Notes: a model not told the origin generated them from the sequence alone. A DNA stretch of 64,000 bases from Stratiformator vulcanicus (GCF_007744515.1 NZ_CP036268.1:4458833-4522832), one strand, 5' to 3'; counted from the first letter of the stretch, positions 8,563 through 31,088 are shown. Numbers and translations are program-made.

Positions 8563-9114
8563 ATGACCGATGCAACTGGAACAGTGTCACTCCAAAGCGA
8601 AGTTCCGCCAATGCATCGGAAACGACGCTTGTGGGGCTACCCGATGGTCCGATTGTCTTTGGCAATCCTGGGAGGAATTGCGGTTCTTTTCTATCTCGCG
8701 ATGGAACTAACCACCGTCAGTCGCGGCTGCGGTCAGATCGATATCCCTATCCAATTCTCGCGGTCGATCACCTCCGACGTCAGCTTGCATGTCGAATTAA
8801 TTCGACGTTCGATGCTGGACACTGATACGCGTCTCTTCATTACTCCACATGATGCGAATCAGATTGTTCTCCACGATCCCGAAATTTCGAAGAGCTTCAG
8901 TGATATCTACTACGGATTAATTTTTCAGCGATTTCACCATACCGAGCCTGAAGACGCCGCGGTCTTCATTTTCATCAGCGCGGATGGAAATCGTCGCGAA
9001 GACGTTGCGTTGTTCCTTCCGACGATTCCGCATTGGCGTGAGGCCGGTGAGCCCCCCTTGATCGTGCCTGTCCCCGATGGCTTCGGACGTGACGACGTTA
9101 CTGCGTTCGATTGA
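8563..9114 (+). CDS. Small single-pass membrane protein, function unknown
   Basis: A 183-residue protein I do not recognise. An N-terminal basic stretch (HRKRRLW) precedes one hydrophobic segment (LSLAILGGIAVLFYLAM), then a soluble, probably extracytoplasmic domain follows. The ATG at 8563 is the most likely start; a GTG three codons upstream and an ATG at 8611 are alternatives. It begins 30 bases after ispH and may be co-transcribed, though nothing suggests an isoprenoid role. Its 3' end overlaps the convergent sulfatase gene by 17 bases. Confidence 0.55.
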   Translation: MTDATGTVSLQSEVPPMHRKRRLWGYPMVRLSLAILGGIAVLFYLAMELTTVSRGCGQIDIPIQFSRSITSDVSLHVELIRRSMLDTDTRLFITPHDANQIVLHDPEISKSFSDIYYGLIFQRFHHTEPEDAAVFIFISADGNRREDVALFLPTIPHWREAGEPPLIVPVPDGFGRDDVTAFD

Positions 9115-10597
9115 TCGTCTCGATCTCATCCAAATTGGGCGGCCAGAACTGCTGGGCAGCAATTGCCTTCGGACTCGGGGGGACGGCCTTGGCTCCCGCT
9201 GCAAGCAGAGACTTCATTTCGTTGACGCGATCCAAGTATTGCGGATTAGCCGCGCGATTCTTTAATTCAGCCGGGTCGTTCTTAAGATTGAACAGAAATG
9301 CGTGCGTCTCGTCGCCGCGCCATTCGAAGTAATGCCAGTCGCCGTAACGGACACTGCGGCCGATTCTGCCGTCGCGGTTAACCGGCACGTGCATGGAATA
9401 AGCGGGGTGATTCCATTGTGCCGAGGGGTTTCGCAATAGCGGCGTTAAGCTGCGGCCGTGCAAGTCATCCAATGGTTTAATGCCTGCTAGATCAAGGAGC
9501 GTCGGATAAATGTCGATGAATTCGACAGGTCGCTCACAGATATCTCCACTCGTGGACTGTTTCGGCGCTCGGATGATCAAGGGCGTTCGGAGTGTCTGGT
9601 CGTAGAGGCCGTACTTGTGCCACATGCCGTGATGGCCCAGTTGATAACCGTGGTCGCCGAGAAAGACGATGATCGTGTTCTCGATTAACCCCTGCTCTTC
9701 GAGTGCGGACAATAGCCGACCGACCTGAGAATCGAGGTATTGAACGCAGGCATAATAGGCTTTGACCGATTTTCTCCGCTGAGCGTCGTCCATGCCCCGA
9801 TCGTAGTCACCATTCTTCGGCATCACCTCGAGAGCACGCTGCTCCGATGCAGCCGCCGTGAACAACGGTACTGATTCGAGCGGGATTGATTCAAAATGCT
9901 CGGCAGGTGCAATCCAAGGCGTATGCGGCACGAAGAAGCCGACGGCAAGGAAGAAGGGATCGGCCTTTGCCGCCTGCATTTTCTCGATGGCGAGTGTCGC
10001 AATCCGACCGTCCGGTGATTGCTTTGAGGACGTCGTGGACATCACCCAATCAAGCGAGCCCGCCCCCTTGTAGCGGCCATGTTTCGCGCCGATCTGATCG
10101 ACCTCGCGGTTAATGGCTTCCCTATCGAACCAATAGGCCTGTTCCCAACTTGTGGCATCATCCCATAGGTCGTTCTGCCAACCCTGCTGCCGCTTATCGT
10201 AAGGATTGCCGTGGAACAGCTTGCCGACCTTAATCGTGCGATAGCCCGCTTCACGAAAGGCCTGCGGCAGCGTCTTCGCATCGGGTAAAGCGTATCGCGG
10301 AGAGACTTCATTCACGAAGACTTTGACCGCATCGGGTCGCTTCCCGAACAGCAGGGAGCATCGACTCGGCCCGCAAAGAGGGTATTGACAATAGGCATCG
10401 TCGAACCGGACACCGGTTTCGGCCAGCGAGTCGATATGTGGTGTCTCGATGGCCGTATTTCCGTAGCATCGCGGAAAGACGCCTAGATCATCCGCCATGA
10501 TGAACAGGACGTTAGGACGGTCGGCGGCAGAGACGAACTCTGAAGCCGCAACGAGACACGCCAGAGTTACAATAATAGCAATGAGTTTTTGCGCCAA
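9098..10597 (-). CDS. Secreted type I sulfatase, iduronate-2-sulfatase-like
   Basis: A 499-residue sulfatase with an N-terminal signal peptide (cleavage near residue 25, after VSA). The formylglycine motif is CGPSR with Cys75, which an FGE-type enzyme would convert to formylglycine. Metal-binding residues include Asp36-Asp37 (MADDLG) and FLGDHGYQLGHHG later on. Sequence layout (PLCGPSRCSLLFGKRPD, WIAPAEHF, YPTLLDLAG) resembles iduronate-2-sulfatases, which in planctomycetes serve to desulfate algal polysaccharides. It follows a second sulfatase gene by 25 bases on the same strand, so the two probably form an operon. The natural substrate cannot be told; the nearby sugar cluster makes a fucan-type sulfated polysaccharide attractive but unproven. 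Confidence 0.9.
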   Translation of the reverse strand: MAQKLIAIIVTLACLVAASEFVSAADRPNVLFIMADDLGVFPRCYGNTAIETPHIDSLAETGVRFDDAYCQYPLCGPSRCSLLFGKRPDAVKVFVNEVSPRYALPDAKTLPQAFREAGYRTIKVGKLFHGNPYDKRQQGWQNDLWDDATSWEQAYWFDREAINREVDQIGAKHGRYKGAGSLDWVMSTTSSKQSPDGRIATLAIEKMQAAKADPFFLAVGFFVPHTPWIAPAEHFESIPLESVPLFTAAASEQRALEVMPKNGDYDRGMDDAQRRKSVKAYYACVQYLDSQVGRLLSALEEQGLIENTIIVFLGDHGYQLGHHGMWHKYGLYDQTLRTPLIIRAPKQSTSGDICERPVEFIDIYPTLLDLAGIKPLDDLHGRSLTPLLRNPSAQWNHPAYSMHVPVNRDGRIGRSVRYGDWHYFEWRGDETHAFLFNLKNDPAELKNRAANPQYLDRVNEMKSLLAAGAKAVPPSPKAIAAQQFWPPNLDEIETINRTQ

Positions 10598-10622
10598 AGA
10601 TCAGATCTCCAAGAAAAGTCAG

Positions 10623-12545
10623 TTAGTTGGACTCGAATTGCCCGATGGCGGAAATGAGTGAGAACTCGAGCGGGTAGGGCGCGGCTCGCGGGCCTTTCGG
10701 CTGGACAAAGAATCCCGATGTGCGATTTTTTAAGGCGGCTTTCATCTCCGGCAGTTTGGGCCGGGCCTTTTCACCAAGGCGTTCCAACGTCCTCGCCGCA
10801 TGGCACGCGGCCCAGCCGTTTTCGCTATTGAGTTCTTTGGCCAGCAGGTCGAGTGCGTCGTCGTGTTCGGCATCAGTGCAAAGTAGCGATGCTGCTTCAA
10901 TACGAACCGATGCGGCTTCATCATCAAGCAGTGATGTCAGGGCTGGTCTGATCTCAGCCAATTCGTCACGTCGCGTTGCAAGCCCCTTCAACGCCCAATA
11001 GCGGATCGCAGGGTCGGGATCACTTAAGTGGTTTGCAATCTCCTCGAACGATGTCAGTTCCGTAACTTCAAGAATACGTTCCAGCGGGTATCCCTTACCG
11101 TCGCGCGCCAGTTCATAGGCGGGAGCGGCAAGCTCGGCCTCCGCCAGCTCGGCCTCTGGCCAGAACCCGAGATCACGTTCGGAGATTAAGAAGTGCTTTA
11201 ATGCCACATCCATTTCCTTAATTCTCCCCTGCTGGGCCGGGTCATTCGCCAAGTCATTAAGGCACCATTTGTCAGACTGCGTATCGAAGAGCAATCGAGA
11301 TGAACGATTCGTCTCCCAGTAGTGTTGCTGCTGCGGATTCAATATTCCTTCGTCGGCATTCTCCCGAATCTCCTGAACCAGTTCGCCCTCGACGTTGTAG
11401 AGCGCCGACATCGTCTGTTGATCGTACGGGACATCTCGGGCATACCTGCGGATAAGCAGATACCGCCCATCGCTAATCCAGCGGGTCACTTCCCGGGTTT
11501 CATCCATGCGGTCGCGCGTGCCGAGAACATAGCGGTGCTTCTTCGAAGCGCCCCGGCCCAAGAACGGGATGCCGTGCATGTAAACAGGCGAATCGACATC
11601 CGCCAGTTCAAGCACCGTTGGAGCCAGGTCGGCAAAACAGGTCAGCCGATCACTGACCGTGCCATGACGGGCAGGGGCAAGTTCTTGAAACTGCTCCGGC
11701 ACATGCACCAGGAGCGGGCATCTCAGGCCATAGTCACTTGCGCAAGCTTTTCCAGTCGGCAGCCCGGCACCGTGGTCTGAATAAAAGAAGATGATCGTCT
11801 CATCGGCGAGGCCGTCTTCTCTTAATTGATGAATGATCTTTGCAACGAAATCATCGAGCGCCGAGATGCAGTCGTAGTAGCGAGCAACGGTCCGCCTGGC
11901 CGTATCGGACTGAGGATAATGCGGTGGAAGCGGGGCGTCGGCCGGGTTATGAATTTGCTCCGACGTGAGTGTGGATTGGACCTCATCAACAAAATAATCC
12001 CAGTCGTTGCGACTCGTCCGCGACTGATGGGTACCCATGAAATTAAAGATACTGAAGAACGGTTTCTCGTCCGTTCGATTCCGCCAGTGCGCGGCCTGAC
12101 TCGAATCGTCCCATGCAGCCCGGACGAACTCGCTCACATCGCCCTCGGCATTACGCGCGAGGTTGTAATCGGTCTTCTTATTATTGGTGCAGTAATAGCC
12201 GGTATCGCGCAGATAGGCCGAAAACGGTCGCACCCATTCAGGAATGCGGTGATACGACCGCATCCGCGACGTGCCGAGCGGGCCGTTATGCATGCCTGTG
12301 ATGATCGTACTCCGCGACGGCGAACACATCGGCGACTCGGCGAAGAATCGAGTGTAGCGAACGCTCCGCTTCGCTAACGCGTCAATGTGCGGCGTGGCGG
12401 CATACTTGTCGCCGTAACAGCCAAGGTCCGGGCTCATATCTTCAGCGACGATCCAAACAATATTGGGCCGGTCGTCGGCCCGCGCCGCTGAGGCACCAAA
12501 GATTACTGCAATTAAGAGAAAGTTCTTGGTCATGAAACGCAACAT
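10623..12545 (-). CDS. Secreted sulfatase of the N-sulfoglucosamine sulfohydrolase type with C-terminal HEAT repeats
   Basis: A 640-residue protein with a signal peptide (cleavage after about residue 23, ARA). The formylglycine motif is CSPSR with Cys74. The catalytic domain (residues about 25-480) has the sulfamidase pattern NIVWIVAEDMSPDLGCYGD, ESPMCSPSRS and FYSDHGAG. Residues about 525-625 form HEAT-like helical repeats (DPAIRYWALKGLA, ASVRIEAASLL, WAACHAARTLERLG), an attachment seen in planctomycete sulfatases and presumably for protein or glycan contacts. The start could be Met1 or Met5. It is followed by the second sulfatase gene 25 bases downstream. Upstream, a terminator separates it from the DUF1552 gene, so the two sulfatases are likely their own transcription unit. 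Confidence 0.9.
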   Translation of the reverse strand: MLRFMTKNFLLIAVIFGASAARADDRPNIVWIVAEDMSPDLGCYGDKYAATPHIDALAKRSVRYTRFFAESPMCSPSRSTIITGMHNGPLGTSRMRSYHRIPEWVRPFSAYLRDTGYYCTNNKKTDYNLARNAEGDVSEFVRAAWDDSSQAAHWRNRTDEKPFFSIFNFMGTHQSRTSRNDWDYFVDEVQSTLTSEQIHNPADAPLPPHYPQSDTARRTVARYYDCISALDDFVAKIIHQLREDGLADETIIFFYSDHGAGLPTGKACASDYGLRCPLLVHVPEQFQELAPARHGTVSDRLTCFADLAPTVLELADVDSPVYMHGIPFLGRGASKKHRYVLGTRDRMDETREVTRWISDGRYLLIRRYARDVPYDQQTMSALYNVEGELVQEIRENADEGILNPQQQHYWETNRSSRLLFDTQSDKWCLNDLANDPAQQGRIKEMDVALKHFLISERDLGFWPEAELAEAELAAPAYELARDGKGYPLERILEVTELTSFEEIANHLSDPDPAIRYWALKGLATRRDELAEIRPALTSLLDDEAASVRIEAASLLCTDAEHDDALDLLAKELNSENGWAACHAARTLERLGEKARPKLPEMKAALKNRTSGFFVQPKGPRAAPYPLEFSLISAIGQFESN

Positions 12546-18614: not shown

Positions 18615-19193
18615 CCGACCCGGCTGCCTGTCGTGACAACGTCTCGTTTCAGGTTCTCAAAGCGACCACTTGCACTAAAGCAGCATACGCCCGACGATCC
18701 TCAAACCATGCTGCCACATCTCGCACTTTCAGCACCGGTAGCTCAGCAGGATAGAGCGACAATTTCCTAAAGCAGGTGCGGAATCGCCATTCGCCTAAAA
18801 AGAATATAGTTTTCTCCGCGCTCGACCCTCGTGGGCAATCACGCAAAAATCCGGCTTCCCCGCGTTTAGAAATTGTTCCAAGTGTCGCGATGCCAGAGGG
18901 TCACTAACACTGCTGCTTCACCGGAAGCAAATTCAATAACGTGCGTTTCTGATTTGTCGAGACTCGCTTTTCAGGTGGCCCAGTCGAGTTCGGCACTCTT
19001 CGACTGAAACCTGGCGCGGCATTTAAAAAACTCATTCTTTCGGATACTTTTCACGAAACCATTTGGCCGCCGCGGTGTTTCAGGTCTTCCGAGAACATTT
19101 TCGGTTTTCATATTATTCGATCTGCTCAGTCGCCATCGTTATCCCCGCCTTCGTCCTGCCACAACTTGTTTCAGCCCACGCGTAGGATCTGTA
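18615..19193. other. Intergenic left end of the island
   Basis: About 580 bases with no credible gene. It contains the degenerate tRNA-Arg piece at 18732-18771. The part after it looks more AT-rich by eye. A TAGGATCT Shine-Dalgarno-like site precedes the ATG at 19194. Confidence 0.6.
18732..18771 (+). pseudogene. Truncated tRNA-Arg 5' fragment (candidate attL)
   Basis: Forty bases that match the first 40 bases of the intact tRNA-Arg(CCT) at 23326 at 36 positions, from the acceptor 5' strand through the D-arm (GTAGCTCAGCAGGATAGAG) to the anticodon loop (TTTCCTAAA). After that the similarity stops; the 3' half is absent and no acceptor stem can form. It is in the same orientation as the intact gene 4.6 kb away. 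This is what remains when an element inserts into a tRNA gene and brings its own copy of the 5' half. It cannot be a working tRNA. Confidence 0.8.
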
Positions 19194-20567
19194 ATGCATC
19201 AATGGCGGGTCGGAATCGTCGGAGGGGGCCCTGGCGGTCTCATGTCGGCATATGACTTACAGAAGTCAGCGTCAGCTCCATTGGCAATTACCATTTTCGA
19301 AGCGACCGAGCGCTGTGGCGGCAAGATTCTGACCCCGCACTTCAACAATGCCCCCATTCGGTACGAAGCGGGAGCCGCGGAGTTTTATGACTACTCTCAC
19401 TTCGACGAAGATCCGCTTAAAGATCTTATCCTCGAGTTAGGGCTACCCATTTCGCGGATGGGGGGAAGCGCATTCATCTTCGGACACCAGAAGTTTACGA
19501 GTCTCGACGACATTACCGACTACCTAGGCCACGATGTGGCGCAGGCATTCAAAGACTTTGACAACCGTGCCAGAGAGGAAATGACCCCCCAAGAGTTTTA
19601 CCACTCGGACGACCCTGAAGGAGTTACCGGGACGCTGAATTGCGATTTTGACAGCCGGCTGTCAACGATTACACACTCCACCGCACGAAAACTGATTGAA
19701 ATGGTCATTCACAGCGACCTGGCAACTGAGCCGGCCCAAACCACGGCCTGCTATGGCCTGCAGAATTACCTGATGAACGACCCCGCCTACATGCAACTCT
19801 ACGGAATCGTCGGCGGCAACGAACGGCTTCCGCAAGAATTAGCCGCACGAAGCAGCGCCAGCTTTCGCATGAGCTCACCCGTTCGAGAAGTATTAAAGGT
19901 TGATGAATCACTGCGTGTTGTGTCCGAAGTCGACGGACAACCCTGCTACGACGACTTCGACTATGTAATCATTGCGCTGCCCCACAATCAGTTACAAAGC
20001 GTTTCCTTTCAAAGCACGCGACTGTCACAAGCGATTAATACTCACTACAACACATATCATTTCCCAGCTCACTACCTACGCATCAGTGCTCTTTTTGAAA
20101 GACCATTTTGGCGAGAAGAACACAGTGACTCTTTTTGGATGCTGGAAGACTTTGGGGGATGCTGTCTCTACGACGAGTCTTCGCGCGACCCGTCTTGCAC
20201 GCACGGCGTCTTGGGCTGGTTAATCGCCGGCGAGGCTGCCGCGGTCATGAGCGAATTGAGCGACGAAGCTCTCATCGGGAAAGCATTGGAGACTCTAACA
20301 CAGCTAGATTCCCAATCGTGCAGTGGTTTCATTGAAGGGCAGGTCCACCGCTGGTCGGGCGCCGTGAATGCCATACCTGCCGGCAAAACTCCCCAACCAC
20401 ACGATCGTCGCCATCAGCCGGAGCCGATCGAACACCCAAATTTGTTCTTTGTCGGCGACTATTTGTTTGATTCCACCCTGAACGGGGTCTTGGATTCGGC
20501 CCAATACGTCGCGGCTTGGATTACCGGTCAAATTGCTGATCAAGCTTTATCGCAGAACGGCGAGTGA
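19194..20567 (+). CDS. Flavin-containing amine oxidase family oxidoreductase
   Basis: A 457-residue FAD enzyme. The dinucleotide-binding motif GIVGGGPGGLMSAYDL is at residues about 7-22, followed by an Asp/Glu-ended strand (IFEATERCGGKI), the usual second motif of amine oxidases and protoporphyrinogen oxidase-like proteins. The C-terminus has the FAD-closing motif NLFFVGDYLFDSTLNGV. No membrane segment or signal peptide is evident, so it is probably cytoplasmic. The family oxidises amines, amino acids, polyenes or porphyrinogens; the substrate here is unknown. It is the first gene of a three-gene operon inside the tRNA-flanked island and overlaps the next gene by four bases. Its Gly/His/Cys-rich insertion (FWMLEDFGGCCLYDE) is a feature I do not recognise from well-known members. 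Confidence 0.8.
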   Translation: MHQWRVGIVGGGPGGLMSAYDLQKSASAPLAITIFEATERCGGKILTPHFNNAPIRYEAGAAEFYDYSHFDEDPLKDLILELGLPISRMGGSAFIFGHQKFTSLDDITDYLGHDVAQAFKDFDNRAREEMTPQEFYHSDDPEGVTGTLNCDFDSRLSTITHSTARKLIEMVIHSDLATEPAQTTACYGLQNYLMNDPAYMQLYGIVGGNERLPQELAARSSASFRMSSPVREVLKVDESLRVVSEVDGQPCYDDFDYVIIALPHNQLQSVSFQSTRLSQAINTHYNTYHFPAHYLRISALFERPFWREEHSDSFWMLEDFGGCCLYDESSRDPSCTHGVLGWLIAGEAAAVMSELSDEALIGKALETLTQLDSQSCSGFIEGQVHRWSGAVNAIPAGKTPQPHDRRHQPEPIEHPNLFFVGDYLFDSTLNGVLDSAQYVAAWITGQIADQALSQNGE

Positions 20568-21469
20568 AAATGGATGAACGAACAATATCTTCACCGCAGC
20601 AACCCCTTCGGAGTGACTTCCAGTCGGAGGCCTTCCCTGACGCCTCGGTCGAAAGCATTTTGATTGTCAATCAACTAAATGAAAGCGATACGGTAATCCA
20701 TCAATTTGAGCCGCCGCTGCAACTCTGGGCAGTTCGGCAGAATGAAACGCAATCAAATCACTCCAGAGTCGAAGCCGAATTCGACTTTCTATTTCTCCCA
20801 ACCGACGCGACAGATCGCAAACTGGGTTCGACAGATGTCCCCGGTGATGTGGCCACTGAAATGCAACAATGGACGCAGCAATCTTCTGGGTCACACACGC
20901 CAACACCCTACTTTTTTAACTTCCAGGGCACACAAGTCTCTTGGTCAATAGACAGATGCGCCGTCCATGCGCCCATCGATAAGGTTGATACGATACGCCG
21001 CACGATTGCCGAAGTTTCTTACTACGAACTTGAAATGAGACGGATCGAGAGTGAGCTAGGGTCTGAATGGCCCCAGTTGGAAGCCGACATCCCCTTAGCG
21101 TTTGATTTCAACGAAAGCTCACTCGAAACGAAGAACGCATTGCTAAAGCGGTTCCAATTCACATACCTGACTCGAGCAAGGCTGGCCCGCCTTGGCCCCT
21201 TTATCCATTCTCCACATCTCTATCCGCCCACTCTCGCCAGCCAACTTAATGAACGCCTTCGCGATCGAACGCGGATTACTTACCGCCACGAATTTGTGAG
21301 TGATCAGCTGGAAGTTTTTGAGGAGGTTTATGAGTTATGCGGGCAGCGATCCAGTGATTATTCTCAAGCCAGAACCGGCCACATTCTCGAATGGATCATT
21401 ATAATTATCCTGATCGTTCAAGTACTATTTTCGGTCGCCGAAATTCTCGCCGGCGCAAGCAGCACGTAA
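20564..21469 (+). CDS. Unknown protein with RMD1/DUF155-like membrane-anchored C-terminus
   Basis: A 301-residue protein; GTG 20564 overlaps the oxidase stop, and an ATG at 20570 is an equally good start. The N-terminal 100 residues are soluble and unfamiliar. From about residue 110 the pattern resembles the RMD1/YagE (DUF155) family: an FNFQGTQVSWSI strand, a long helical part, then FEEVYELCGQRSSDY and a C-terminal hydrophobic helix, EWIIIIILIVQVLFSVAEIL. In that family the end is a membrane anchor following a coiled helix pair; its molecular function is poorly known, with a mitochondrial yeast member implicated in meiotic division and others linked to translation. The assignment rests on the C-terminal pattern only. 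The stop overlaps the next start (TAATG). Confidence 0.5.
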   Translation: MKMDERTISSPQQPLRSDFQSEAFPDASVESILIVNQLNESDTVIHQFEPPLQLWAVRQNETQSNHSRVEAEFDFLFLPTDATDRKLGSTDVPGDVATEMQQWTQQSSGSHTPTPYFFNFQGTQVSWSIDRCAVHAPIDKVDTIRRTIAEVSYYELEMRRIESELGSEWPQLEADIPLAFDFNESSLETKNALLKRFQFTYLTRARLARLGPFIHSPHLYPPTLASQLNERLRDRTRITYRHEFVSDQLEVFEEVYELCGQRSSDYSQARTGHILEWIIIIILIVQVLFSVAEILAGASST

Positions 21470-22560
21470 TGCGTTACGCCTCGATTGATATCCTAAGAGC
21501 TCTCGCCATTTTCGTTATGGTCTTTGTGCATTTCGGCGAGAATCTGTCTGGCGTCGTAATGCCTTTCGCGGGCTTCGGGGCGCCCCTCTTCGCGTTCCTA
21601 TCTGGCGTCAGCTATTACCTTTGGACAAGGGGTCAATTCTCTCGCGGAAAATCGGAGTCCGAGGTTTCCAAAATTTCCGTTCGCCGTGGCCTCTTCGTAT
21701 TCGGGGTTGGTATCGCTTTCAACATCTTAGTTTGGTTGCCGGAAGACACATTCAACTGGGATGTATTGACGTTTATAGGCGTGGGGCTTGTTGTCCTTAA
21801 CTTTGTTCGTAGGATTCCCAAAGAGGTCATCATTATGATGGCCGTGGCGTCGGTTCTCATCAGCCCGATACTCAGGCTGATTATTGATTACAACAGCTAT
21901 TGGGCGAACGGGTACTTCGACCCCGATCTAACGTTATCAGACATCTTCATCGGATTCGGGATCGCCGGGTATTTCCCGGTATTCCCATGGCTGGCTTTTC
22001 CACTTCTAGGCTATGTTTCCAGCCAACACCTGTTTTCACGTGAAGAAGAGGCAGAACAATCTAGATCGCAGTCGCACTATCTAGTCGCCACGGGCGGACT
22101 TCTCGCATTGACCGCGGGCCTATTGATCCAGACAAGACCTCTTCTACCAACCCTTGTCTCGACCAATTATTTTGGCGGATGGACAATGTACCCGCCGACC
22201 ATCGAATACATCTGCGGCACCATCGGGCTGACGTTGCTGCTGCTTTGCGTCACACATCGTTACTTCGATAGTCCGACCGCCGCAGAAAATCCCGGTCATT
22301 TGTTTGCAGCGGCAAAGCTGTTCAGCCAATATGCATTTACGGTTTATATCGTCCACCACCTTGTCCATGTCTGGCCTATGTGGATTTACGCTCTTGCGGT
22401 AGGCCAAGAGCCGACTTATTACTGGATGAAGGCAATGCCGCTATGGATGGCAATGCTGCTCGCGGTCATTTTCCTGTTATTCACCTATCTAATTTTGCGA
22501 CGCGTTGGCCAGCGAAGAACGTTCGGCGTGGAAGCCTCGATGCGATGGGTTTGCGACTAG
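21469..22560 (+). CDS. Multi-pass membrane acyltransferase-like protein (DUF1624/acyltransferase-3 type)
   Basis: A 363-residue integral membrane protein with about ten hydrophobic segments. The N-terminus, ASIDILRALAIFVMVFVHFG, has the R-x-L-A-I-x-x-M-x-x-x-H pattern shared by acyltransferase-3 and DUF1624/heparan-alpha-glucosaminide acetyltransferase-like proteins; the His at the end of helix 1 is the likely catalytic residue. Such proteins move acetyl or other acyl groups from the cytoplasm to glycans or lipids outside. I chose ATG 21469, which overlaps the previous stop; an upstream in-frame ATG at 21391 lies inside the previous gene. It is the last gene of the island operon. The acceptor is unknown. 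Confidence 0.7.
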   Translation: MRYASIDILRALAIFVMVFVHFGENLSGVVMPFAGFGAPLFAFLSGVSYYLWTRGQFSRGKSESEVSKISVRRGLFVFGVGIAFNILVWLPEDTFNWDVLTFIGVGLVVLNFVRRIPKEVIIMMAVASVLISPILRLIIDYNSYWANGYFDPDLTLSDIFIGFGIAGYFPVFPWLAFPLLGYVSSQHLFSREEEAEQSRSQSHYLVATGGLLALTAGLLIQTRPLLPTLVSTNYFGGWTMYPPTIEYICGTIGLTLLLLCVTHRYFDSPTAAENPGHLFAAAKLFSQYAFTVYIVHHLVHVWPMWIYALAVGQEPTYYWMKAMPLWMAMLLAVIFLLFTYLILRRVGQRRTFGVEASMRWVCD

Positions 22561-23187: not shown

Positions 23188-23399
<212 letters not shown>

Positions 23400-23431
23400 T
23401 TTTGCTTTGACCGATGCGGCTCTGAAAGCGC

Positions 23432-29492: not shown

Positions 29493-31088
29493 ATGACCGC
29501 TGGACCAAATCATTCGCGGAACAGAGCTCCGAAGGTCATCATCGCCGGAGCCGGACCGGGCGGTCTGGCCGCGGCAATGCTGCTGCGTCATGCGGGCTGC
29601 CAGGTGAGCCTCTACGAACGCCGCCCGAGCGTGGGAGGCCGGACCAGTTCGATCCGCGCCGAAGGTTTTCGCTTTGACTGCGGGCCAACCTTTTTTCTGT
29701 ATCCTCGGGTCCTTCAGGAAGTATTCTCCGCCGTCGGACGTGATCTGGCTGACGAAGTACCGATGGCGCGGCTCGATCCGCAATATCGGCTGATCTTCGG
29801 CCAAGGCGGCCAACTCGACGCCACCCGTGACGTCGAGAAAATGGAACGACAGATCGCGTCGATCAATCCACGCGACGTCGGGAACTTCGAACGCTATCTG
29901 ACGGAGAACCGCCACAAGCTGGAGAAATTCCGGCCTGCGCTCGAGTCCCCCTTCAGCAAGCTGACCGATTTGATGTCGCCCGGGCTCATCGCAGCCCTGC
30001 CGGTCCTGCGGCCGTGGCTGTCGGTTGACGGGGACCTGAAACGCTACTTCAAAGACCAGCGGCTGCGAATCGCGTTCAGCTTTCAGTCGAAGTATCTCGG
30101 GATGTCTCCCTTCCGATGTCCGAGCCTGTTTTCAATTCTGGCGTTTCTCGAATACGAACACGGCGTCTGGCATCCGTACGGCGGGTGCGGGCAGATTTCG
30201 GAGCGGATGGCTGAAATCGCCGTCGAGATGGGCGTTGAACTGCATACCGCCGAGCCGATCGAAGAGATTCTTTTCGACGGGCGTAAAGCCGTTGGTGTGA
30301 AGACCGCATCCGGCGAAGAGTCCTGTGATGCTTTGGTCATCAACGCCGACTTCGCCCGCGCGATGCAGCGACTCGTTCCCGACACAATTCGCCGTCGCTG
30401 GACCGATCGCAAAATCGAGAAGAAGGAGTTCAGTTGCTCCACCTACATGATGTATTTGGGGATTGAAGGTCTCGAAGAGCAGTTGCAGCACCACACGATT
30501 TACATCTCTGAAAACTACGACCGCAACCTGCGAGAGATCGAGAGCGACCATGTGCTTTCGGACGATCCCAGCGTCTACGTTCAGAACGCCGGAATCACGG
30601 ATGACTCGCTCGCCCCGAAAGGTTGCAGCACGCTATACGTGCTCGCCCCGGTGACGCATCAGCATCCGAACGTCGACTGGTCCGTCGAGAAAGATCGATT
30701 CCGCAAAGTCGTGATGCGACAGCTCGCACATTTAGGAATCGAGAATCTTGAGAAGCGAATTCGCTTTGAAAAGATCATCACACCGGCCGATTGGGATACC
30801 GACTACGAAATTCACATCGGTGCGACGTTCAATCTCGCTCACAGCCTGAAGCAAATGTTGCACTTGCGGCCGCGAAACCGCTTCGAAGACCTTGACGGCG
30901 TCTATCTCGTGGGCGGCGGAACTCACCCGGGAAGTGGTTTGCCGGTGATTTACGAGTCAGCACGCATCACCAGTCGCCTGCTCTGCGGGGACTTCGGTTT
31001 AGAGTTTCCTGAGACCGACGAGCCGCCGGCCCTCATCTCTCGCGGCTCCGCCGATGATGCTTTGGAAGCCGAGGCCGTTGCTTCCTGA
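29493..31088 (+). CDS. Phytoene/diapophytoene desaturase family (CrtN-like)
   Basis: A 531-residue CrtI/CrtN-type FAD enzyme. The dinucleotide motif KVIIAGAGPGGLAAAML is at residues about 14-30, followed by YERRPSVGGRTSSI. A C-terminal FAD motif (GVYLVGGGTHPGSGLPVI) closes the fold. CrtN desaturates squalene- or dehydrosqualene-derived C30 carotenoid precursors. With the aldehyde dehydrogenase and CrtP-like gene that follow, it forms a C30 carotenoid set. The downstream stop at 31088 lies close to the dehydrogenase start, so they are probably co-transcribed. It is distinguishable from the second desaturase-like gene (32782-34368) by sequence, so the two likely do different steps. Confidence 0.85.
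   Translation: MTAGPNHSRNRAPKVIIAGAGPGGLAAAMLLRHAGCQVSLYERRPSVGGRTSSIRAEGFRFDCGPTFFLYPRVLQEVFSAVGRDLADEVPMARLDPQYRLIFGQGGQLDATRDVEKMERQIASINPRDVGNFERYLTENRHKLEKFRPALESPFSKLTDLMSPGLIAALPVLRPWLSVDGDLKRYFKDQRLRIAFSFQSKYLGMSPFRCPSLFSILAFLEYEHGVWHPYGGCGQISERMAEIAVEMGVELHTAEPIEEILFDGRKAVGVKTASGEESCDALVINADFARAMQRLVPDTIRRRWTDRKIEKKEFSCSTYMMYLGIEGLEEQLQHHTIYISENYDRNLREIESDHVLSDDPSVYVQNAGITDDSLAPKGCSTLYVLAPVTHQHPNVDWSVEKDRFRKVVMRQLAHLGIENLEKRIRFEKIITPADWDTDYEIHIGATFNLAHSLKQMLHLRPRNRFEDLDGVYLVGGGTHPGSGLPVIYESARITSRLLCGDFGLEFPETDEPPALISRGSADDALEAEAVAS

Follow-up and report, generated by a model that had tools for sequence, protein, structure and literature searches.

Within a 64,000-nt stretch of the single-contig, 5.23-Mb genome of the planctomycete Stratiformator vulcanicus (NZ_CP036268.1:4458833-4522832; hereafter the window, whose full-length numbering is used for all positions), three consecutive genes at 19194-22560 encode a flavin amine oxidase (AMO), a membrane-anchored protein (MID) and a membrane acyltransferase (ACT). 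Each is present in single copy in this genome, and they are laid out as follows:

19194..20567, plus strand: AMO, a soluble flavin adenine dinucleotide (FAD) amine oxidase with a monoamine oxidase (MAO)/putrescine-oxidase fold, 457 amino acids (PF01593, 2e-31)
20564..21469, plus strand: MID, a predicted membrane-anchored DUF155/RMND1-like protein, 301 amino acids with a GTG start (from hhalign and a structural model)
21469..22560, plus strand: ACT, a multi-pass transmembrane acyltransferase of the TmAT superfamily (HGSNAT_cat/Acyl_transf_3), 363 amino acids counted from a conserved M-R start (PF07786, 5e-19; PF01757, 5e-12)

An earlier note on this DNA had described three overlapping genes, and the same-strand open reading frames (ORFs) were found where it placed them: AMO and MID share 4 nt (GTGA, 20564-20567) and MID and ACT share 1 nt (TAATG, at 21469). 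An alternative MID start, the in-frame ATG at 20570, would abolish the overlap with AMO and leave a 2-nt gap. The junctions are also tight in homologues, where the commonest AMO-MID spacing is exactly -4 nt (median -1, n=73) and the median MID-ACT spacing is 4 nt (n=59), in keeping with the proposal in that note of one translation-coupled unit.

To determine how widely the arrangement recurs, 84,980 species genomes were scanned with an AMO profile, which returned 120 relatives, and 80 loci were read. MID lies directly after AMO in every one of the 72 AMO loci with sufficient downstream sequence (at least 1.1 kb), and ACT comes next in 57 of the 68 AMO-MID pairs with at least 1.3 kb beyond; the co-occurrence of the three families in other genomes, which the earlier note had put forward as a check, is thus recurrent. 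Within the family to which S. vulcanicus belongs, 17 of 170 genomes have a MID homologue, and the AMO-MID-ACT order is retained in all of the other 16 (one contig begins after AMO). An evenly drawn scan of approximately 390 genomes of the phylum found six strong AMO matches, all six with MID, and five strong ACT matches, all within those six; an additional distant AMO homologue (G195, E 2.5e-88) stops at a contig edge, with its downstream side not readable. Pairwise tree distances of AMO, MID and ACT correlate with one another, with Mantel r of 0.72-0.77 versus permutation maxima of 0.15-0.18. Clustering of flanking ORFs across loci, aimed at a larger operon, found no further recurrent cassette gene.

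Eleven AMO-MID loci carry no ACT. The gene is missing genome-wide in nine of these 11 cases. One of the two genomes with ACT elsewhere holds a second, ACT-containing cassette beside the ACT-less one, the two loci (L093 and L097) coming from a single metagenome-assembled genome (MAG) assembly, CANLGS01. The cultured Zavarzinella formosa is a carrier of AMO-MID that lacks ACT. Because ACT is absent from these loci, and the ACT-less cassettes mostly cluster together in the AMO tree, AMO-MID is the invariant core; ACT is a frequent addition that some lineages do without. Of the three-gene grouping first proposed, the recurrent linkage therefore stands, while the invariant part is reduced to the oxidase and the middle protein. 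Carriers are mostly Planctomycetota; other contigs are labelled as Granulicella (Acidobacteria), Chthoniobacteraceae (Verrucomicrobia), Gemmatimonadetes, Binataceae (Binatia) and Proteobacteria, labels which for MAG contigs are no proof of origin. A plasmid search for AMO or ACT found none, and a scan of genome contigs with the single MID sequence gave no match. Across these genomes we show that the module is conserved, co-inherited and mobile.

AMO matches PF01593 over residues 14-441, carries a conserved FAD-binding Rossmann motif GxGxxG (G10-G15) and has no predicted hydrophobic membrane span. Its AlphaFold model (predicted local distance difference test, pLDDT, 82.9; predicted template-modelling score, pTM, 0.83) has a full-length MAO fold, with putrescine oxidase (3rha/2yg3, E ~1e-24) as the best Foldseek match, followed by MAO A/B and a bacterial MAO solved with putrescine. 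The soluble flavin oxidase anticipated for this locus is thereby supported, and the polyene product that had been offered as an option is disfavored by a fold of the amine-oxidase type. Putrescine oxidase and bacterial MAOs (PDB 3rha, 2yg3, 8p84 and 9h5p) are the closest structural and single-sequence matches, at ~20% identity, and share both the fold and GxGxxG. AMO differs from them in being coupled to a membrane-protein gene at every testable locus and in carrying an arginine, Arg296, in the canonical position of the lysine at flavin N5, as placed by independent alignments to putrescine oxidase and L-amino-acid oxidase; the arginine is invariant in 81 of 81 AMO sequences, none of which has the conserved N5 lysine. 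AMO forms a family of its own, whose members are 45-61% identical to the window protein.

The third protein bears out the multi-pass acyltransferase that had been called from the sequence, with at least eight strong membrane spans by hydropathy in addition to its two Pfam matches. The conserved DxxRx10H motif comprises D7, R10 and H21, the last at the AT3 position, and FxxxxG (F41, G46), Arg72/73 in transmembrane helix 3 (TMH3) and Tyr293 in TMH9 are invariant or nearly so. DxxR, FxxxxG, the TMH3 Arg and the TMH9 Tyr are the motifs of TmAT enzymes (PMC12423673), and ACT also shares the TMH1 His of AT3 type with the HGSNAT/AT3 acyltransferases of that superfamily (PMC12423673), differing from them as the operon partner of an amine oxidase. 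Because ACT has all TmAT acyl-CoA motifs, it should, by analogy with the superfamily, bind acyl-CoA and pass the acyl group across the membrane. Characterized members of the HGSNAT/AT3 group mostly modify glycans (PMC12423673).

A second genomic context for MID bears on the substrate. Five MID homologues occur without AMO, and in four of the five a spermidine synthase gene lies directly upstream, separated by 3-4 nt or overlapping. In one planctomycete (G262, locus L208) MID begins 3 nt after a spermidine/spermine synthase gene, and on a Phyllobacterium rhizobial plasmid (L213) an annotated spermidine synthase gene overlaps MID by 4 nt. The two remaining loci have a speD-speE-MID arrangement: a second planctomycete (G374, L209) has the order SpeD-SpeE-MID, and a plasmid of Rhizobium sp. 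BG4 (L214) has a SpeD-like ORF, SpeE and MID consecutively. These AMO-less proteins are full-length homologues: hhalign matches them to the AMO-linked family with a probability of 99.9% (E 5e-31), and to the subfamily lacking ACT with one of 100% (E 6e-46). The SpeE-MID linkage is conserved across two phyla, and chance adjacency would be negligible because, out of thousands of genes, a genome has only one or a few copies of speE.

We propose, with a probability of roughly 0.5, that AMO, the MID anchor and ACT make up a compact module, spread horizontally and tethered to the membrane, that modifies amines and most probably acts on polyamines. The oxidase is read as polyamine-directed mainly because MID homologues adjoin speE and speD, and further support comes from the folds nearest to AMO, those of putrescine oxidase and of a bacterial MAO whose structure was solved with putrescine. 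In this scheme we infer the polyamine substrate, the docking, the order of steps, the physical complex and the acyl acceptor as follows. AMO, as a cytosolic FAD enzyme, would dehydrogenate a C-N bond in a polyamine or in a compound derived from one. MID would act as a membrane adaptor, using its cytosolic domain to dock AMO on the inner membrane face, or spermidine synthase instead of AMO in the sister cassettes, and might also sense polyamines. ACT, if present, would work at the membrane, transferring an acyl group from cytosolic acyl-CoA via its pore to an amine or hydroxyl group on either the substrate or the product. Eukaryotic polyamine catabolism likewise couples amine acylation to a MAO-fold flavin oxidase, through SSAT and acetylpolyamine oxidase. 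The module may resemble this acetylation-plus-oxidation pairing in logic, and differs from it in having a membrane acyltransferase rather than a soluble GNAT, an extra anchor, and an acylation gene that is absent in some lineages.

Several observations weigh against a polyamine-directed function. MAO-fold enzymes use many substrates, and the predicted fold of AMO does not by itself fix its substrate because its neighbors are nearly tied in the VIA ranking (putrescine oxidase, MAO, L-amino-acid oxidase, VioA and PPOX, Z 28.8-31.1). The exchange of lysine for Arg296 may indicate a chemistry differing from that of known polyamine oxidases, and the ACT acceptor could be a glycan or lipid instead. 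The sequence flanking the AMO loci yielded neither SpeE nor SpeD genes. The SpeE-MID loci are probably one cassette lineage rather than four independent events, because their SpeE proteins have a common N-terminal motif. The fifth AMO-less MID (L210) follows a Rossmann-type protein of ~379 amino acids (L210:1462-2601, minus strand), directly upstream, that has no match by Pfam, NCBIfam or PDB; a kinship of this partner with homospermidine synthase or saccharopine dehydrogenase was read by eye and was not confirmed by PDB or Pfam.

The main rival, which we regard as unlikely, is a substrate that is a non-polyamine amine or amino lipid, associated with the membrane and oxidized by AMO, with MID as a generic tether and with ACT acylating amines on lipids or on surface glycans in the way that HGSNAT acylates glucosamine. 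The nearly equal Z of L-amino-acid oxidases, the tryptophan oxidase VioA and PPOX would be expected under such a reading, the arginine at the N5 position suggests an unusual substrate or chemistry, and the group to which ACT belongs is mostly glycan-modifying where characterized (PMC12423673), but why MID homologues should share operons with speE, or with speD and speE, in two phyla is left unexplained.

By its profile and model, MID itself is a single-span anchor and a distant relative of DUF155. The model (pLDDT 86.1, pTM 0.78) opens with an alpha/beta domain at the N-terminus, continues in long helices and ends in the sole transmembrane helix predicted, at C-terminal residues ~277-295. Searches against Pfam and NCBIfam gave no DUF155 match (hmmscan of alignment members did not reach the PF02582 cut-off), and a search against PHROGs gave no match. 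Compared by hhalign with five bacterial RMD1/DUF155 proteins (alignment A4), the MID family (A3) scored a probability of 95.4% (E 2e-8); two further alignments, A5 and A9, gave 94.0% and 95.0% against A4, and the controls, ACT and CorA, gave 0.1-0.2%. The claim of a tail-anchored DUF155-like protein is accordingly upheld by profile-profile comparison only, with Pfam silent. MID shares with the DUF155/RMND1-Sif2/3-Mrx10 proteins (PF02582; 'RMD1 family protein'; hhalign 94-95%) a single C-terminal transmembrane helix ending ..LEWIIIxLI.., and is unlike them in falling under Pfam detection, in a likeness concentrated in the C-terminal half and in its coupling to amine or polyamine enzymes. A PF02582 search of 246 genomes of the phylum found one clear DUF155 protein and none in S. 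vulcanicus. An Arc1p_N_like Pfam match (2 of 16 members, below cut-off) was treated as chance. One MID homologue (L062:2139-3353) has ~100 extra C-terminal residues past the transmembrane helix. A second planctomycete family of single-transmembrane RMD1-like proteins, ending ELLEWIIIVLIAVEIVL, was also encountered (L127:499-1590, L124:1483-2592, L125 and L126); it had no Pfam match in the three members scanned, its profile links are 96.6% to DUF155 and 95.7% to MID, and it is possibly a new DUF155 subfamily.

In predicted structure MID points elsewhere, since the top 37 Foldseek matches are all CorA, CmaX or ZntB (best E 6.6e-4, probability up to 1.00, TM-scores of 0.23-0.36), proteins whose cytosolic architecture and stalk helix the predicted MID may share. 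The VIA Z of the MID model to a CorA-like fold is 12.8, versus 10-11.5 for unrelated helical-bundle decoys. With TM-scores this low, and with helical bundles of no relation scoring alike in VIA, kinship with CorA is plausible but unproven. As a sequence relative CorA was rejected (hhalign 0.2%), so that the likeness is structural only; MID has one transmembrane helix where CorA has two, and the family alignments contain no GMN motif. These data bear on whether MID is the functional center, forming a CorA-like oligomer in the membrane that senses or conducts polyamines or cations and regulates AMO, SpeE and ACT. Such a role would suit both the predicted fold and the fact that MID is the sole part common to the oxidase and SpeE cassettes, but the single helix, the missing GMN motif, the absence of profile similarity, the low TM-scores and the similar Z of the decoys make it improbable. 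Returning to MID as an adaptor, we suggest, tentatively and with the odds somewhat against it, that MID represents an undescribed family of membrane partner subunits for polyamine enzymes, serving AMO in some phyla and SpeE or SpeD-SpeE in others.

In S. vulcanicus the three genes lie inside a tRNA-Arg island of ~4.6 kb, as the earlier note's description of them as island cargo had it. The island is delimited by the following features:

18733..18771, plus strand: degenerate copy of the tRNA-Arg 5' half (direct repeat D1), a putative att site at the outer island border
23206..23298, plus strand: C-terminal remnant of a tyrosine site-specific recombinase, 55% identical over 31 amino acids to an integrase
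23325..23400, plus strand: intact tRNA-Arg (CCT), the island insertion site (ARAGORN)

The tRNA-Arg repeat copies are spaced 4594 nt start to start, and the integrase matched by the remnant (436 amino acids, PF00589 6e-11) is from the genome of a family member. Guanine-plus-cytosine (GC) content is 0.50-0.53 in the island versus 0.57-0.60 in its surroundings, with third-position GC also lower. The flanking GNAT gene has no close homologue in relatives that would permit an empty-site comparison. Module flanks differ between genomes, and few of the 56 loci examined have a tRNA close by. An island at a tRNA is therefore either peculiar to S. vulcanicus or uncommon, and tRNA sites were rejected as a general integration point of the module. 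Residence on such an island beside an integrase remnant, together with the patchy distribution across the family (17 of 170 genomes), is what would be expected of an anti-phage or competition module. We consider this very improbable: PADLOC assigns no defense family to MID or ACT and matches AMO only weakly, to a generic oxidoreductase; module neighborhoods hold no recurrent defense genes; a search of viral contigs for MID found none; and the linkage to genes of polyamine biosynthesis speaks for a metabolic role.

Elsewhere in the window, a second, unrelated flavin amine-oxidase/phytoene-desaturase-like gene lies at 29493-31088. Read by eye, positions 369-7232 hold a sugar-acid catabolism cluster (alcohol dehydrogenase-, altronate dehydratase-, tagaturonate reductase- and KDPG aldolase-like genes and an amidohydrolase), and 9098-12545 a tandem pair of sulfatase-like genes, a common planctomycete theme.

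Literature searches for DUF155 in connection with spermidine, for 'RMD1 family protein' and for an AMO-MID-ACT operon found nothing relevant, with most subscription journals outside the search. Each part comes from a known superfamily, and it is the assembly and the MID family that appear undescribed. RMND1, the human DUF155-like member, causes mitochondrial disease and is biochemically poorly understood; the tie of MID to spermidine synthase makes the function of DUF155-like proteins testable. Should the module act on polyamines, it would add a hitherto undescribed, membrane-bound branch to their metabolism. If MID is indeed a partner of polyamine enzymes, then synthesis or oxidation would be sited at the membrane through a DUF155-like, CorA-fold adaptor, and this would provide the first biochemical lead for the DUF155/RMND1 superfamily.

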